Positions 3,383-9,796 of a stretch of 10,799 nucleotides of DNA are shown here, piece after piece. The stretch lies in the NCBI GenBank assembly GCA_903839795.1, contig CAIMDR010000316.1, positions 1 through 10,799 on the forward strand, written 5' to 3'. The notes under the pieces were generated by a model, which was not told where the DNA came from, searched no databases, and was given only the letters and a program-made list of their open reading frames with translations. This DNA is from an uncultured Methylococcaceae bacterium. Lineage in GTDB: Bacteria; Pseudomonadota; Gammaproteobacteria; Methylococcales; Methylomonadaceae. The number at the start of each line of letters is the position of its first letter. Within the stretch, counting starts at the first letter, position 1. The position numbers were made by a program, and so were the translations under genes.

Positions 3383-5257
3383 TTACTTATTGCGTGCCGG
3401 CAAGGTGAAATAAAAAGTGGTGCCTTTCCCCGGTTGGCTATTAAAATGCAAATACCCTTCGTGGGCTTCGATGAGCGAGCTACTGATGGAAAGTCCCATG
3501 CCCATGCCGTCTGACTTGGTGGTGAAAAAAGGCATTAATATTTTTTCTTGCTGGTCTTCATCAATTCCCGATCCATTGTCCTTTATTCTGACTTGTATGC
3601 TATTGTTGGAAGTTAATTCACTCTGTATGCTTAAGCGGCGTTCCTGGTTTGAAGGGCAGTTTTGCAAGGCATCAATACTATTTCGGATCAGGTTTATGAG
3701 AACCTGTTCAATTTGTACCTGATCGACATTGACAGACGGCAGTGGGTCTTCCAGTTCAAAGCTTAGCGTTATGTTATGTTCTTTAAGCTCATCAACACAC
3801 AGGCCGGCCGCGTTATTAATCAAGGTATTAATGTTACTGATTGAGCGTTGTGTGGCATGGGTTTTAACAAATTCCCTCATACGATGAATTATCCGCCCCG
3901 CTCTTAACGCTTGTTGCTGGGTTTTATGCAAAATTTCCGAGAGCTTTTCCATATCAAGCTTTTCAGCTTTAATAAGGTTTAAACTGACTTGCGTATAGGT
4001 GTTAATAGCCGTCAGTGGCTGGTTAACTTCATGGGCAATGCCTGATGCCATTTCTCCCATCAGTCCCAGACGGGTGACATGGGAGAGTTGGTTTAGATGT
4101 TCCTTGTCTTGTTGTTCCTGATGTTTACGTAAACTGACATCTCTAACAATGATTGTAAAATAGTGCGCATTGTCGATTGAATACTCTGCTATGGATAGAT
4201 CCAGTGGCACTACTGAGCCATTTTTGTGAAGACCATCAATTTCCTGAATTTGACGGCTCGGTTGAGCGGTATTGAAGAAGTTGAAATGCGCTAGCGGAAT
4301 GAGAATGCTAATGCCGCACCCCACCAGTTCTTCGGGCTTATAGCCAAAAATAGTTTCTACAGCGGCATTAGCCGATATGATATTGTTGTTGGACATATCA
4401 ACGGTAATAATACCTTCTACCGAGGCATTAAAAATGGAGTCAAGCTTAGCTTCCATTAGTTTGCGTTCGGTAACGTCGGTAATAAAGCCGTGCCAGAGTG
4501 TGGCACCGTTCGCTTCCCGCTCCGGTACGGCGTTGCCGAACAGCCAGCGTACAATACCGTCATTAAACTTGACCCGATATTCATGGCTCCACGGAGTTAA
4601 GTTTTGTGCGGATTTCTTGATGGAGGCTTTAACGTCGCTGAGGTCGTCCGGATGAATAAACGTAAATACTTTGGACGCATCTTTGTGGACTTCTTCCTGG
4701 CTGGTTTGGTATATATCCCGAATGCCTTCACTGGCAAAAGGAAAGCAGGAGCTACCATCGGGAAGCAAACGATATTGGTAAACCATTCCCGGCACCCGAC
4801 TGGCAATTTTTTGGAGGCGGTCGAAAGCTTCTTGCTGAGCCAGTTGCGCTATTTTTCTTTGTTCTATTTCCGCTTGCAGTTGCTTGTCAGTCGGTAAGGA
4901 CAAGGCTTGGGGCACAACCCACAGCATTAATGCGGCGGTGACAATCGAGATAACTGCCGTAAAAGCCTTAAGCAAGCCATCCAGCCAATATAAAGGTATC
5001 CATATCGTAACGGCTGACAGTAAATGCGTGGTGCCGCAAGCGATAATAAACCCCGCAAACAGTATGCCCAGCCACGGATACTGTATATCTTTACGTTGCC
5101 GGATAAAATAGACAATAGTAAAAGGAATGGAATAATAGGCCAGCGTAATCAGCAGATCCGAGACAACGTGTAGCCAAAGTAAAACAGGGCTCCACGACAG
5201 ACAATAGCCGTGAGGAATGAGGTCTTTAATACCCAAAAGGTCAATCAGTGCTTGCAT
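3383..5257 (-). CDS. Ethylene-receptor-like (ETR1-type) membrane sensor histidine kinase with two PAS domains
   Basis: The 624 residues contain, in order, an ETR1-like ethylene-binding membrane domain of three helices (about 22-118), PAS (about 148-266), PAS (about 270-380), HisKA and HATPase. In the membrane domain, SDLLITLAYYSIP (33-45) and IIACGTTHL (71-79) match ETR1. Asp34, Tyr41, Ile44, Pro45, Ile71, Cys74 and His78 line up with ETR1 Asp25, Tyr32, Ile35, Pro36, Ile62, Cys65 and His69. Cys74 and His78 would be the Cu(I) ligands. The kinase core looks active: His409 in AHEVNQPL, an N box at 522-530, DNGSGID at 560-566, PFFTTK and GMGMGL at 584-589. It has no receiver domain, and no adjacent regulator gene lies on its strand, so it is an orphan kinase. 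The start is the only ATG near the domain, but it lacks a clear ribosome site. Ethylene, copper or another small hydrophobic signal could be the ligand; that part is inference. Confidence 0.92.
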   Translation of the reverse strand: MQALIDLLGIKDLIPHGYCLSWSPVLLWLHVVSDLLITLAYYSIPFTIVYFIRQRKDIQYPWLGILFAGFIIACGTTHLLSAVTIWIPLYWLDGLLKAFTAVISIVTAALMLWVVPQALSLPTDKQLQAEIEQRKIAQLAQQEAFDRLQKIASRVPGMVYQYRLLPDGSSCFPFASEGIRDIYQTSQEEVHKDASKVFTFIHPDDLSDVKASIKKSAQNLTPWSHEYRVKFNDGIVRWLFGNAVPEREANGATLWHGFITDVTERKLMEAKLDSIFNASVEGIITVDMSNNNIISANAAVETIFGYKPEELVGCGISILIPLAHFNFFNTAQPSRQIQEIDGLHKNGSVVPLDLSIAEYSIDNAHYFTIIVRDVSLRKHQEQQDKEHLNQLSHVTRLGLMGEMASGIAHEVNQPLTAINTYTQVSLNLIKAEKLDMEKLSEILHKTQQQALRAGRIIHRMREFVKTHATQRSISNINTLINNAAGLCVDELKEHNITLSFELEDPLPSVNVDQVQIEQVLINLIRNSIDALQNCPSNQERRLSIQSELTSNNSIQVRIKDNGSGIDEDQQEKILMPFFTTKSDGMGMGLSISSSLIEAHEGYLHFNSQPGKGTTFYFTLPARNK

Positions 5258-5346
5258 GTGTCAGTTGAATTGGCGGCTTATTAAAAGTTGGTTTACAATT
5301 AATCTGTTAAGGAAATTTTTATAACAATAAATCAAGAGGTAATTTC

Positions 5347-5661
5347 ATGAAAATGCTCGTTAAGTTAACCGTTATGTTGGCACTGGCTTCTTTAAGTCAG
5401 GCAAGTTTAGCAGCTGATCCTGTTGAAAAGAAATCTGAAATGACAATGGATCATGGCATGGATGAATCAAAAATGATGGAGCATTTAAAAATAAGGCAGG
5501 AAGAGATTCTAAAAATGCATGATCTTTCCAATAAAATTCTTGCAGAAACTGATCCAAAGAAACAGCAAGTCTTGAAAGATCAACAGCTTGAACTGATTAA
5601 AGCCGAGCATATTAAAATGATGTCCATGCATCATTCAAAAATGATGGGTATGACTAAATAA
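5347..5661 (+). CDS. Secreted Met/His-rich small protein, putative periplasmic copper binder
   Basis: This 104-residue protein belongs to no family I can name. A signal peptide is clear: basic MKMLVK, a hydrophobic core, and a likely cut after ASLA (residues 19-22). The mature 82 residues hold 12 Met and 6 His and no Cys. They cluster at both ends, MTMDHGMDESKMMEH (32-46) and MMSMHHSKMMGM (91-102). A charged helical middle, probably a hairpin of two helices, separates them. Such Met/His clusters are typical of periplasmic Cu(I)/Ag(I) binders, so metal storage or delivery is a reasonable guess, not a proof. The start has AGAGG eight bases upstream. The gene is monocistronic with a terminator directly downstream, and it is divergent from the ETR1-like kinase gene, with which it shares an 89-bp promoter region. 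Confidence 0.82.
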   Translation: MKMLVKLTVMLALASLSQASLAADPVEKKSEMTMDHGMDESKMMEHLKIRQEEILKMHDLSNKILAETDPKKQQVLKDQQLELIKAEHIKMMSMHHSKMMGMTK

Positions 5662-5776: not shown

Positions 5777-7210
5777 TTAATCTACGGTTTTCAGATTGTA
5801 TTTTCTTACCCGATAGCGTAGCGTTTCCCTGGTTGCGCCTAGCGCCCTGGCGGCTCCGGTCAAATTGTTATCGGCTCGTTCCAGTGCAGTTTTAATGATA
5901 AATCGATCCATATCATCCAGTGCCATACTGCCATCCAACGGTAAAAAAATACCTTGTTCACTCGATTTTGCTTGAGAGTGGCTATCGATCCCTGCAACGC
6001 GTTGATCCCGATCACTTAAGCCTGCCTGGGCATGCTGTCCCGGCAATTGCAGCCATTGTCCCGGAAAGGTTGCGCCGTCAGAAAATAATACGCAGCGTTC
6101 AATCACATTACGCAATTCCCTGACATTACCCGGCCAGTGATGCGCTTTAAGCTTGTTCCATACTTCATCAGGAATATCTTTTACTTGTCGTCCGGCTTTG
6201 GCATTGTATTCAGCAACAAACAGCGGCACCAGCTCGTCAAGATCTTCAACGGCTTCACGCAGTGGCGGCAAAATCACTTTAAACACGCTTAAACGGTGAT
6301 ATAAGTCAGCGCGAAAACTACCCTCCTGAGCCATTTGTTCCAGATCACGGTTACTGGCCGCAACTATCTGCACATCAACACTGATCTCTTTTTCACCGCC
6401 CAAGCGGCGCACTTTGTGATCCTCAATGGCTTTAAGCAACTTGGCTTGTAAATCCAGCGGCATTTCACCGATTTCATCCATAAACAAGGTGCCGCCATCG
6501 GCTTGTTCCAATAAACCACGATGACGTCCCGATGCACCGGTAAAGGCACCGGGCTCATGACCAAATAACTCGGATTCTAATAGTTCTCGCGGCAATGCGG
6601 CACAATTAACTTCAATCATCGGTTGTTGGGCGCGAGGGCCACCGTAGTGCAGGATGCGTGCGGTCAAACCCTTGCCGGTGCCGCTTTCGCCACCGATAAT
6701 CAAGGCGCTGAACGGAACTTGCGTTAGTTTTGCCAGTAACTGCCTGATTTCTTGCGCTTGCTGGCTATGCCCCAAATAAGCCTCCGGCGAGTAACGCCGA
6801 TGACCTTGCTTGGTTTGATCAATAACCCGACGCTGAATAGACGCACTACGCGTAGCACTGGTTACGACCAGGTCGAGACGTTCCAAATCACAGGGTTTTT
6901 CCAGAAAATCATAAGCACCCAGACGCAGCGCTCTGACTGAATCGGGCACGCTGCCGTAACCGGTTAAAAACAGCCATTCGGCATAGCTGACATGTTTTTT
7001 CATCGCTTCCATAAAGTCCAGCGCGTTACCATCCGGCAAGTTCATATCCGAGAGTATTAGTAGCGGTTCTATGCGATTTTTAAGCAGTAACGTTTTGGCT
7101 TTTTCTAAGGTGTCAGCCAATACGACATCCCAGCCTTGTGCCCGGTAGTGACGAGAAAGCTCGGTACCCAGCAGTTTTTCATCTTCAATGATGAGGAGTG
7201 TTTCTATCAT
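5777..7210 (-). CDS. Sigma-54-dependent response regulator, NtrC family
   Basis: The 477-residue cytosolic transcription activator has three modules. The receiver (about 3-118) has the acidic pair Glu9/Asp10, the phospho-acceptor Asp55 ([11 protein letters not shown]), Thr83 and Lys105. The AAA+ domain (about 144-375) has Walker A GESGTGKG at 174-181, the sigma-54 contact loop GAFTGA at 221-226 and Walker B TLFMDEIG at 241-248; WPGNVREL at 359-366 marks its end. A Fis-type helix-turn-helix is at about 448-470 ([18 protein letters not shown]). A Gln/Ser-rich linker of about 50 residues precedes the DNA-binding part. All catalytic motifs are intact, so it should drive open-complex formation at -24/-12 promoters when phosphorylated. 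Its ATG overlaps the stop of the kinase gene by four bases (ATGA), so the two are translationally coupled and the kinase is almost certainly its partner. The target genes are not shown, except a possible site upstream of the operon. Confidence 0.95.
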
Positions 7211-8658
7211 GATTTATTTCCAGGCAAGCATTCTTTCGGTAATAGCACGGTAACACAAGCGCCATGCGGTTGTTGGTTACCCAGTTTAATGGTTCCACCC
7301 ACGTCTTTGACAAAACGCTGCACCATTGCCAAGCCCAGGCCGGTACCTCCCTGACGACTGGTGCGGAAGGGGCGTATGCCATAGTTAAGCAGGTCTTGGG
7401 AAAAGCCGGGGCCATTGTCAAAAACATCAATACGTAAACGCTGGCTTTCAATGTGTGCTTTGATACGGATTAAGCCAGGATTGCTTTCCAGGGCATCGGC
7501 AGCATTGAGTATCAAATTTAATAAAGCCTGACGGATGCCGCTCTCGGGCAAATGTACCGGTAAGGTGTTGGGCGTATCACAGTTCAGCTCGATGGATTCG
7601 GAGATTTGGTAACGGGTTAAGGTCAGTAAATCACAAATGAGTATGGACATATCAAAATCAGTCGCTGCTTCAGGTGAATGACGGCTTTGATCGAGCATAT
7701 CGTTTAGCAATCTCGCCAAGCGCTTTAGTTCGCTACTAATTAAATCCATTCTTTCGCATTGGTTTTGATCATCAATTTCACGGCGTAAATTGTTAAAAGC
7801 CATTTGAATGCCCGCCAGTGGATTACGTATTTCATGAGCTAATTCTGCGGCAACTTCACCAATGGCCGCTAAACGTTCAGCTCTTGCCAAGCTATATTGT
7901 TGTTCCAAAAGGGCTTGGGTGGCTAATCTGACTTCCCTTTGTAAGGATTGCGCAAACAAGCGTTTGGCTTCTTCCAGTTCGGCGAGATGTATCACTAACG
8001 CGTTATAGCTGTTAAAAACCGGAAATAGCAAAGGATCCAAATGATCTGTGGTTATCGGCGTGTAGTTTTCTTCAGTCAACCGCTCCAATAATTGTCTCAG
8101 GTCATTCAGTGGATGTAAAATTCGATAGTTTAAAAACAACATCGCGCCCAATAATATCAAGGTAAAAGTAACCAAGGCGATGTACAGTTCGGTTTGGGTG
8201 TCAAAGTTGATATCTTCCAGTAATTTTTCCCGTCGCAAGCCTTCTTCATCCAGTGTTTGTCTCATGACTTCAAGAGCCTGTATCAAGCGGGTATTTTTTT
8301 CTGACTTGTCCAGCTTGCTCACATTAGCGAGAAGACTACTGACAGTCTCTAAACTTTCTTTGGTAGCCGGTAATAAATAGCGATTATCAGCTATTAACGT
8401 CTGCATTTCATTCAGGGTTTTAGTCAATACGACGGGTTGGGAATCGGGAACGGTTTCGGTTACATAGCCAATCAAGGATTGCTGTAAACCCACCGATACA
8501 TTTTGAATGCGATGGGAATAGTTCACGTAGGATAAAACCGTTTCAAAATGATGTAGGTTGCGCCAGATCATGCCGCCAAGAATAGCCAGCGCTAACAGTA
8601 ACAACCCCAAGAACGCCAAGGCTCGGATTTTTGCGGGTCGATAAAAAATTGAGGTCAT
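7207..8658 (-). CDS. Two-TM sensor histidine kinase, partner of the sigma-54 response regulator
   Basis: The 483-residue inner-membrane kinase has TM helix 1 at about 13-31 and a periplasmic helical sensor of about 120 residues. TM helix 2 is at about 157-176, with a HAMP-like linker (178-230) and a coiled coil after it. The kinase core has the H box AHEIRNPL with His275, an N box NLILNAADAL (381-390), DNGPGF (414-419) and GTGLGL (438-443). The periplasmic part has no Cys and shows no recognisable ligand fold; it looks like a helical bundle of the four-helix or CHASE3 kind. The stop TGA is shared with the regulator start. The ribosome site before its ATG is weak. A TATAAT at 8716-8721 on the minus strand lacks a -35, so an internal promoter is only a possibility. 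It is probably co-transcribed with the TPR gene 85 bp upstream. I cannot name its signal. Confidence 0.93.
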   Translation of the reverse strand: MTSIFYRPAKIRALAFLGLLLLALAILGGMIWRNLHHFETVLSYVNYSHRIQNVSVGLQQSLIGYVTETVPDSQPVVLTKTLNEMQTLIADNRYLLPATKESLETVSSLLANVSKLDKSEKNTRLIQALEVMRQTLDEEGLRREKLLEDINFDTQTELYIALVTFTLILLGAMLFLNYRILHPLNDLRQLLERLTEENYTPITTDHLDPLLFPVFNSYNALVIHLAELEEAKRLFAQSLQREVRLATQALLEQQYSLARAERLAAIGEVAAELAHEIRNPLAGIQMAFNNLRREIDDQNQCERMDLISSELKRLARLLNDMLDQSRHSPEAATDFDMSILICDLLTLTRYQISESIELNCDTPNTLPVHLPESGIRQALLNLILNAADALESNPGLIRIKAHIESQRLRIDVFDNGPGFSQDLLNYGIRPFRTSRQGGTGLGLAMVQRFVKDVGGTIKLGNQQPHGACVTVLLPKECLPGNKS

Positions 8659-8743: not shown

Positions 8744-9796
8744 TTACGGAATATCCGTTGGAGAATTTTTCAGATAAAGTGCTTTATAAGCGGCAACCGG
8801 CTTTTCAAAATTACCGTTTGCTTGAATCAAGGCATCCAGATCGGCTGCTAATAGCTCGTCAATAGTGACTGGATGATCAAAATTTAAATCGCGTAATTTT
8901 TGTAGTGTTTTCTCTGCGCCTTCACTATCCCCCTGTAAATAAAGACTGACGGATAAGCAGTAATAGGCATAGCTTTTTTTCTCTTCCAGGGTAACCAGCT
9001 TAAAGCGCTTTGCAGGGGCGGCTTCAAAATCCCAAGTATCCTCATTCTCGGGTTTGGTCATTATTGTCTTATCATTCAGCCAATCAATTGCCTGATTTTG
9101 ATAGCTAATTGCCTGGCTTAGATATTCGAGACGCCAATAAATTTTGGCGCTTTCAAGTGCGGAAAGCGGGTATTCCTTATTTTTTCCATATTCTTTAATG
9201 GCCTCCTCATAATGCAGTTGTTTAAAATAGATATTACCCAAGTTGTTTCTGTATTTAGGTGTCGGTGAGCTATCTATCGCATTTAAGGACTCCACCTTGG
9301 CGTCTTCATAATTGCCTGATTGGTCATAAAGTCTGGCCAAATCATAATGAGCTTCAGCCAGTTTCGGATTTTGTGTTATAGCCTGCTCAAAATACGGTAC
9401 GGCCTTATCAGGTTGGTCATTAGCGGCGTAATACTCACCCAGGAATAAATTAACATGAGAGTCGTTTGGGTTCTGTTGATAAAGTATGTCGATGGCTTCT
9501 TTAAACTCTGGCTGGGATAATGTTTGTGGAATATCGGCTATTTGTAGATACCACGCAGCTTGTTTGTTTTGCGGATTGGCTTTGAGTTCTTCTTCAAAAA
9601 TCCGTTTGGCATCGGCGTAACGGCCAATATTTAAAGCATTATCGCCTTCAACGATTAACTGCTTGGCAGCAACGGGCGGTTTTTTTGAGCTGTCATAACT
9701 ATAGGCCACCCAACCGCCAGTTATTATCGCTGCAATTAAGGCAGCGACAAGACTTAGTGTTTTTATGTAATTCCAGAGTTTGGATAAAAAGCTCAT
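8744..9796 (-). CDS. Membrane-anchored TPR-repeat protein
   Basis: The 350-residue protein has one N-terminal membrane helix (about 13-33), preceded by Lys6 and Lys12 and followed by a linker KKPP. The rest should therefore be periplasmic, anchored by an uncleaved signal; no lipobox is seen. TPR-like helix pairs are visible at about 43-76 (GRYADAKRIFEEELKANPQ), 112-145 (DKAVPYFEQAITQNP), 146-178 (GNYEDAKVESLNAI), 182-205 (HYEEAIKEYG) and 276-305. The segment 238-272 (with TKPENEDTWDFE) interrupts the repeats and looks like an insert. AGGA seven bases before the ATG is a good ribosome site. As first gene of a likely operon with the kinase and regulator, it may assemble a sensed complex or help the kinase in the periplasm. 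That role is inferred from position only. The stop lies 85 bp from the kinase start. Confidence 0.85.
   Translation of the reverse strand: MSFLSKLWNYIKTLSLVAALIAAIITGGWVAYSYDSSKKPPVAAKQLIVEGDNALNIGRYADAKRIFEEELKANPQNKQAAWYLQIADIPQTLSQPEFKEAIDILYQQNPNDSHVNLFLGEYYAANDQPDKAVPYFEQAITQNPKLAEAHYDLARLYDQSGNYEDAKVESLNAIDSSPTPKYRNNLGNIYFKQLHYEEAIKEYGKNKEYPLSALESAKIYWRLEYLSQAISYQNQAIDWLNDKTIMTKPENEDTWDFEAAPAKRFKLVTLEEKKSYAYYCLSVSLYLQGDSEGAEKTLQKLRDLNFDHPVTIDELLAADLDALIQANGNFEKPVAAYKALYLKNSPTDIP

Follow-up and report, generated by a model that had tools for sequence, protein, structure and literature searches.

Plant ETR1 receptors carry a GAF domain after the membrane domain. Ethylene-binding domains with varied outputs are already in print for proteobacteria (PMC7700396), and bacterial receptors with demonstrated direct binding of ethylene are described for very few species (Synechocystis, A. 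brasilense; PMC11819568). The first 130 residues of AzoEtr1 bind ethylene in yeast, SynEtr1 is also a light receptor, and ETR1, SynEtr1 and AzoEtr1 are treated under an inverse-agonist model in which ethylene lowers kinase activity (PMC11819568). The seven ethylene residues are reported for GeiEtr1/2, and plant receptors have two N-terminal cysteines (PMC6682694).

A tblastn search with the ETR domain against plasmid records matched 19 records, 7 of them from Azospirillum. The record of A. brasilense Sp7 holds a 525-aa ORF (L160:3959-5536) with release factor 3 (by reading) upstream and, overlapping it downstream, a receiver ORF of 160 aa from the first start or 135 aa from a later ATG. Since this layout fits the description in PMC11819568, the ORF was taken as AzoEtr1. 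Two cyanobacterial plasmid homologues were retrieved as well.

The window, i.e., the whole stretch of 10,799 nucleotides analysed here, comes from a Methylobacter in the broad sense, and its ORF at 3383-5257 on the minus strand is intact. The features of this gene are listed below; the codons were placed by direct reading and by alignment with AzoEtr1.

3383..5257, minus strand: ETR1-type sensor histidine kinase, 624 aa (ORF; Pfam ETR1_N, PAS_3, PAS_9, HisKA, HATPase_c)
4895..5182, minus strand: ETR1_N domain, residues 26-121 (PF25487, E 1.1e-36; whole-genome search)
5096..5188, minus strand: helix 1, residues 24-54, with D34, Y41, I44 and P45 (AlphaFold2 and DSSP; hydropathy)
5156..5158, minus strand: codon of D34
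5135..5137, minus strand: codon of Y41
5123..5128, minus strand: codons of I44 and P45
5006..5077, minus strand: helix 2, residues 61-84, with I71, C74 and H78 (AlphaFold2)
5045..5047, minus strand: codon of I71
5036..5038, minus strand: codon of C74, expected Cu(I) ligand
5024..5026, minus strand: codon of H78, expected Cu(I) ligand
4898..4990, minus strand: helix 3, residues 90-120 (AlphaFold2)
4490..4738, minus strand: PAS_3, residues 174-256 (Pfam)
4133..4414, minus strand: PAS_9, residues 282-375 (Pfam)
3860..4060, minus strand: HisKA, FixL-like, residues 400-466 (Pfam; dimerisation-domain comparison)
3392..3724, minus strand: HATPase_c, residues 512-622 (Pfam)

An earlier note, made from the sequence alone, had read positions 4903-5257 (residues 1-118) as an ETR1-type ethylene- and copper-binding domain on a PAS histidine kinase. 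This classification holds: Pfam assigns ETR1_N, PAS and HisKA, with PF25487 scoring 125.4 bits against a cut-off of 27. The AlphaFold2 model, built on a 42-row alignment, has a mean pLDDT of 85.7 (82-97 by ten-residue blocks over residues 21-120) and predicts three long N-terminal helices, accompanied by hydropathy peaks. No solved structure matched the membrane domain by sequence, and the PAS-HisKA-HATPase part matches PDB 4gcz, a FixL fusion, at E 8e-58. The transmitter is FixL-like, the difference from FixL being the ETR domain at the sensor end; the protein scores below the NCBIfam FixL equivalog cut-off (282.7 against 850 bits). The Pfam scan matched neither a receiver domain nor a GAF domain in the 624-aa protein, and PAS domains stand in place of the latter.

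In its PAS, HisKA and HATPase_c transmitter (Pfam), the window kinase is of the AzoEtr1 kind. The two proteins share the three-helix ethylene domain (51% identity over residues 14-123 of the window kinase), the seven residues, the order of PAS followed by HisKA/HATPase and the lack of an in-protein receiver. However, the window kinase has two PAS domains, the dimerisation domains (compared over 78 aa with the window kinase as reference) agree at only 26 of 78 positions, and the receiver gene found directly downstream of AzoEtr1 has no counterpart beside the window gene. An ETR1-type domain is also shared with the cyanobacterial receptors SynEtr1 (Synechocystis PCC 6803) and GeiEtr1/2 (Geitlerinema). 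The likeness to Arabidopsis ETR1, judged on the plant side by the Pfam model, lies in ETR1_N and the seven ethylene-binding residues; unlike the plant receptor, the window kinase has PAS domains and one conserved cysteine, C19, which is found in 76 of the 85 ETR domains considered below.

All seven residues that the earlier note had named as important for ethylene binding, D34, Y41, I44, P45, I71, C74 and H78, were found by direct reading at the positions it gave. We take them to be the counterparts of ETR1 D25, Y32, I35, P36, I62, C65 and H69. A misalignment of D34, C74 or H78 had been named as the result that would count against the claim; in BLASTP, all seven residues are identical to those of the 525-aa AzoEtr1 ORF of A. 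brasilense Sp7. The residue columns were then counted over the fetched loci, which gave 85 distinct ETR domains after two short ones had been dropped. D34 is kept in 80, Y41 in 80 (F in the other 5), I44 in 73, P45 in 77, I71 in 79, C74 in 83 and H78 in 85, and the full set is unchanged in 56 of the 85. A search with residues 1-140 of the window kinase returned 713 homologues; the residue pattern exceeds chance, because among the best 120 of them it reads DYIPICH in 115 and DFIPICH in 5. Compared with its nearest orthologue, that of G004 (91% over 473 codons), the window gene shows a dN/dS of 0.20, with 0.16 within the ETR domain, and is therefore under purifying selection. The ETR protein of G028 (L043:4672-7095), encoded next to the sigma-54 two-component system treated below, carries F in place of C74 and a receiver at its C-terminus, so that some members of the family have probably lost copper.

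Of the seven residues, the two copper ligands show the strongest conservation, which would also suit a different function, namely a membrane sensor of Cu(I), or of another small molecule or gas, reporting copper supply in a methanotroph. The remaining ethylene-binding residues are mostly kept too, which speaks against this reading, as does the ethylene binding of AzoEtr1 with the same seven residues (PMC11819568). No copper gene was recognised in the window or among the ETR-gene neighbours read by eye. We consider a copper or other small-molecule sensor unlikely and favour an ethylene receptor; the neighbouring Met/His-rich gene, which bears on the same question, is treated below.

ETR1_N is unusually common in the window's genus and not general across the order. 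Of the 35 genomes of the genus, 15 carry it, as do 21 of the 61 relatives; among the families other than that of the window, f4 has it in 5 of 6 genomes, but f2, f3, f5, f6, f7 and f8 together in 0 of 18. In the class sample, 10 of 274 genomes exceeded the cut-off, three of them from the same order (the window's own, G308 and G039), which leaves 7 of 271 once order members are set aside, with the reservation that some of the 240 no-match genomes may belong to the order. The 47 ETR1_N loci in named genomes carry the label Methylobacter, Methylococcaceae or Methylococcales in 43 cases, Crenothrix in one and 'uncultured proteobacterium' in three. ETR genes are present in Methylobacter tundripaludum SV96 and M. 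psychrophilus Z-0021; SV96 encodes two ETR kinases of 1161 and 900 aa in tandem (L087:5975-12703). The window's own genome has three ETR1_N proteins: the window kinase, a GGDEF-EAL protein on C132 (Pfam) with P45 changed to T, and a kinase-receiver-Hpt protein on C601 with D34 changed to G.

The output classes of the ETR ORFs were assigned by home-made profiles and motifs in two overlapping sets. Among the 49 ORFs of the relatives, 20 look like kinase-receiver proteins, 15 (that of C132 included) are GGDEF/EAL-like, 9 are kinase only and 5 show no output or are partial; the corresponding counts for the 48 ORFs of the named genomes are 11, 2, 28 and 7. L091, L095, L096 and L103 share a run of genes in which a second kinase (~707 aa), a receiver (151 aa) and a receiver-GGDEF protein (~426 aa) come after an ETR kinase. 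This conserved run, seen in M. tundripaludum SV96 and three further loci, is likely an operon leading from ethylene to cyclic di-GMP. Such an arrangement, the share of GGDEF/EAL-like proteins and the lowering of cyclic di-GMP by ethylene in A. brasilense (PMC11819568) would all fit an intact window receptor whose main output, instead of transcription, is cyclic di-GMP or surface behaviour through unlinked partners. The window protein itself, however, has no GGDEF or EAL domain and its transmitter is FixL-like, and we hold this output to be very unlikely for it.

The surroundings of the ETR gene on its upstream side comprise the following features:

5258..5346, no strand: divergent intergenic stretch that separates the ETR gene from the Met/His-rich gene, with partial conservation across seven aligned loci of six genomes
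5347..5661, plus strand: Met/His-rich exported-looking protein, 104 aa, divergent neighbour, not ETR-specific
5777..7210, minus strand: sigma-54-dependent response regulator (NtrC/AtoC-like), core locus of the genus
7207..8658, minus strand: histidine kinase HK2, presumed partner of the sigma-54 regulator (family scan)
8744..9796, minus strand: TPR protein, same core locus as HK2 (family scan)

Downstream of the ETR gene lie a same-strand 119-aa ORF without a family match and an opposite-strand YgjP-like gene; a receiver gene directly downstream is absent. The 104-aa Met/His-rich protein has no Pfam or NCBIfam match. Its gene occurs in 11 of the 35 genomes of the genus, in 9 of those 11 near the sigma-54 two-component system, and of its 153 homologues, the organism-named ones among the best 120 are methylococcal except for one labelled Gammaproteobacteria. 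An exported-looking protein of this kind, encoded divergently next to the receptor, would suit a copper-sensing function, but the gene also stands beside the regulator where the ETR gene is missing (G015, G025) and is thus not specific to it; for the same reason, the idea that it serves as the receptor's copper chaperone was dropped.

TPR protein, HK2 and sigma-54 regulator form, in this order, a core locus of the genus, HK2 being matched in 28 of 35 genomes (E 1e-120). An ETR gene directly follows the regulator in 7 of these 28 (G000, G004, G013, G019, G028, G031, G034). In G019, transposase-like ORFs disrupt both copies in this slot (L058, L078), one of which also has a broken regulator gene. 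The slot of G025 holds a different PAS kinase, and several other genomes with HK2 have lysA-, dapF- and xerC-like genes (by reading) after the regulator and no ETR gene. Complete ETR copies in the slot range in length from 624 to 1019 aa. In the tree of the ETR domain, which is short and leaves many forks unresolved, the best topology requires three changes for the slot copies and the well-supported branches force only one; descent of the slot genes as one inherited lineage is compatible with this tree but not supported by it.

The position after the regulator raises the question of whether the ETR kinase feeds the sigma-54 regulator in addition to HK2, with the Met/His-rich and ETR genes as targets of that regulator. 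The recurrence of the gene in 7 of 28 genomes (disrupted in G019) would agree with this, though the rest of the ETR protein differs among them, and so would the presence of another PAS kinase in the same slot of G025. On the other side, the regulator has its own kinase, HK2, in the operon; the ETR kinase agrees with HK2 at only 20 of the 78 dimerisation-domain positions and at none of the six that we take to be specificity residues; the locus lacks an ETR gene in many genomes, although in four of the 28 the contig stops right after the regulator (L143, L151, L154, L155); and the tree does not support the slot copies as one clade, a single origin still being compatible with it. The sigma-54 system is probably not the partner, because it is a core locus, is often without an ETR gene and has its own kinase, and a second input of this kind appears improbable to us. 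The adjacent regulator was accordingly rejected as first-choice partner, since its core system already includes a kinase whose transmitter is unlike that of the ETR kinase. The patchy ETR gene, the other kinase in G025 and the occurrence of the Met/His-rich gene without ETR speak for the slot as a site of sensor-kinase turnover, not for a dedicated ETR/sigma-54 pathway.

A closer relation was found in the transmitter itself. Its dimerisation domain agrees with those of the ETR kinases of L033, L046, L055, L087, L092 and L104 at 62-64 of 78 positions, with L100 at 56, with the bacteriophytochrome kinase of its own genome (C267) at 63 and with its own soluble FixL-like PAS kinase on C513 at 50; the value for L035 is 28. 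The C267 protein (L003, 85-2752) is a bacteriophytochrome-type kinase with PAS_2, GAF and PHY spread over two overlapping ORFs. Whereas SynEtr1 senses light itself, light sensing would here reside on this separate kinase with a similar transmitter. One M. tundripaludum ETR kinase agrees at only 12 of 78 and adjoins a second kinase, a receiver and a receiver-GGDEF gene, so that outputs differ within the ETR family.

The kinase on C513 runs off the contig end, with an apparent continuation on C640 (188 bp, 94%), where a REC-GerE regulator begins within the last codons of the FixL-like kinase. That the two contig ends, inside one kinase gene, agree at 94% over 188 bp indicates that the assembly contains strain variation. 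In two named genomes (L098, L101), the gene immediately ahead of an ETR kinase encodes a FixJ-type receiver, and the dimerisation domain of this kinase agrees with that of the window kinase at 64 of 78; these receivers are short and lack a DNA-binding part, and the one in L098 shares 61% identity with the receiver of the C640 regulator, against 32 of 104 positions with the window's sigma-54 regulator. At a contig edge in L124, a FixJ-like receiver (53/85) lies close to an ETR gene, and in L035 the ETR kinase is directly followed by a REC-GerE regulator. These neighbourhoods and the similarity of the transmitters point to the C640 regulator, and the most likely partner, as judged from the sequences, would be a regulator with a FixJ-type REC domain and a LuxR helix-turn-helix, probably the one on C640.

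Among the 26 ORFs with the window's transmitter motif (5 + 21, from overlapping sets), most have no adjacent receiver if the sigma-54 regulator next to the slot is left aside. G004, which is 87% complete and has a window-type kinase, gave no FixJ-like match at E 1e-40. Co-occurrence of a FixJ-like regulator with this kinase type was discarded as evidence, since 4 of 5 genomes of the relatives set (among them the window's own) is uninformative when the background rate is 32 of 61.

We consider it fairly probable that the window gene encodes a Cu(I)-ethylene receptor kinase with a FixL-like transmitter, acting on a FixJ-type regulator that is probably the one on C640. In the mechanism that we infer, three membrane helices would hold Cu(I) through C74 and H78, with D34 and a pocket of Y41, I44, P45 and I71, and ethylene would bind to this Cu(I). 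Binding would change, and by analogy lower, the activity of the FixL-like kinase through the two PAS domains, which may add a second input. The kinase would then phosphorylate the stand-alone FixJ-type regulator and so alter the transcription of its putative target genes. The C640 regulator may also be a target of the genome's bacteriophytochrome and soluble PAS kinase.

Ethylene is oxidised by methane monooxygenase in methanotrophs, as described for Methylohalobius (PMC11507031). The earlier note had drawn its link to methane on the condition that the host is a methanotroph. This is probably so, since the pmoA family (PF02461) was found in 29 of 35 genomes of the genus, but it was not found in the window's own assembly, which is 83% complete. 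Incompleteness is the likely cause, because PF02461 is found in 19 of the 22 good genus genomes and is missing from the other 3 as well. A PQQ methanol dehydrogenase-type enzyme is present in the assembly. The assembly's one match to PF04896 (30.3 bits against a cut-off of 26.7) covers 60 of 245 positions, lies inside a long transporter-like ORF, is 34% identical over 44 aa to a real PmoC and was read as chance. We found no evidence for the window kinase in copper control of methane monooxygenase.

A FixL-FixJ-like pair and pmoA occur on one contig in five genomes, ~13-26 kb apart (L196 in G031; L197 in G013; L198-L199 in G034; L200-L201 in G019; L202-L203 in G025), out of the 18 genomes of the genus that have both families; in the other 13, mostly fragmented, they lie on different contigs. 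Between the pair and pmoA, four of the five, G025 being the exception, have protease-, DnaJ-, Hsp20- and HPF-like genes (by reading). The pair is thus placed as a candidate regulatory system in the vicinity of the methane monooxygenase genes, which describes a position and not a function. The methane link that we infer would be a Methylobacter-type ethylene circuit, in which exchangeable sensors for ethylene, red light and a cytoplasmic signal share one transmitter type and one FixJ-like regulator, encoded near pmoCAB in the five relatives, and adjust methane metabolism or surface life to ethylene. We offer this circuit tentatively, as a speculative and rather doubtful extension.

Together, our results place the window kinase in a known bacterial ETR family and in an unexpected host group. 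As far as titles and the beginnings of abstracts show, the literature searched includes no paper on an ethylene receptor in a methanotroph, and it yielded no ethylene-binding data for any methanotroph protein. A 2016 Synechocystis paper is said to list bacterial receptors, and Methylobacter may be in its supplement. In its main text, PMC11507031, which deals with ethylene metabolism in methanotrophs, uses the terms receptor, ETR1 and histidine kinase zero times each.

The named strains with ETR genes, M. tundripaludum SV96 and M. psychrophilus Z-0021, make ethylene sensing testable, and the paralogues on C601 and C132, each with one binding residue changed, are natural near-controls. Soil methane uptake is influenced by ethylene. 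Should the ETR proteins bind this gas, methane oxidisers that oxidise ethylene would also sense it, and this could bear on how that influence arises.
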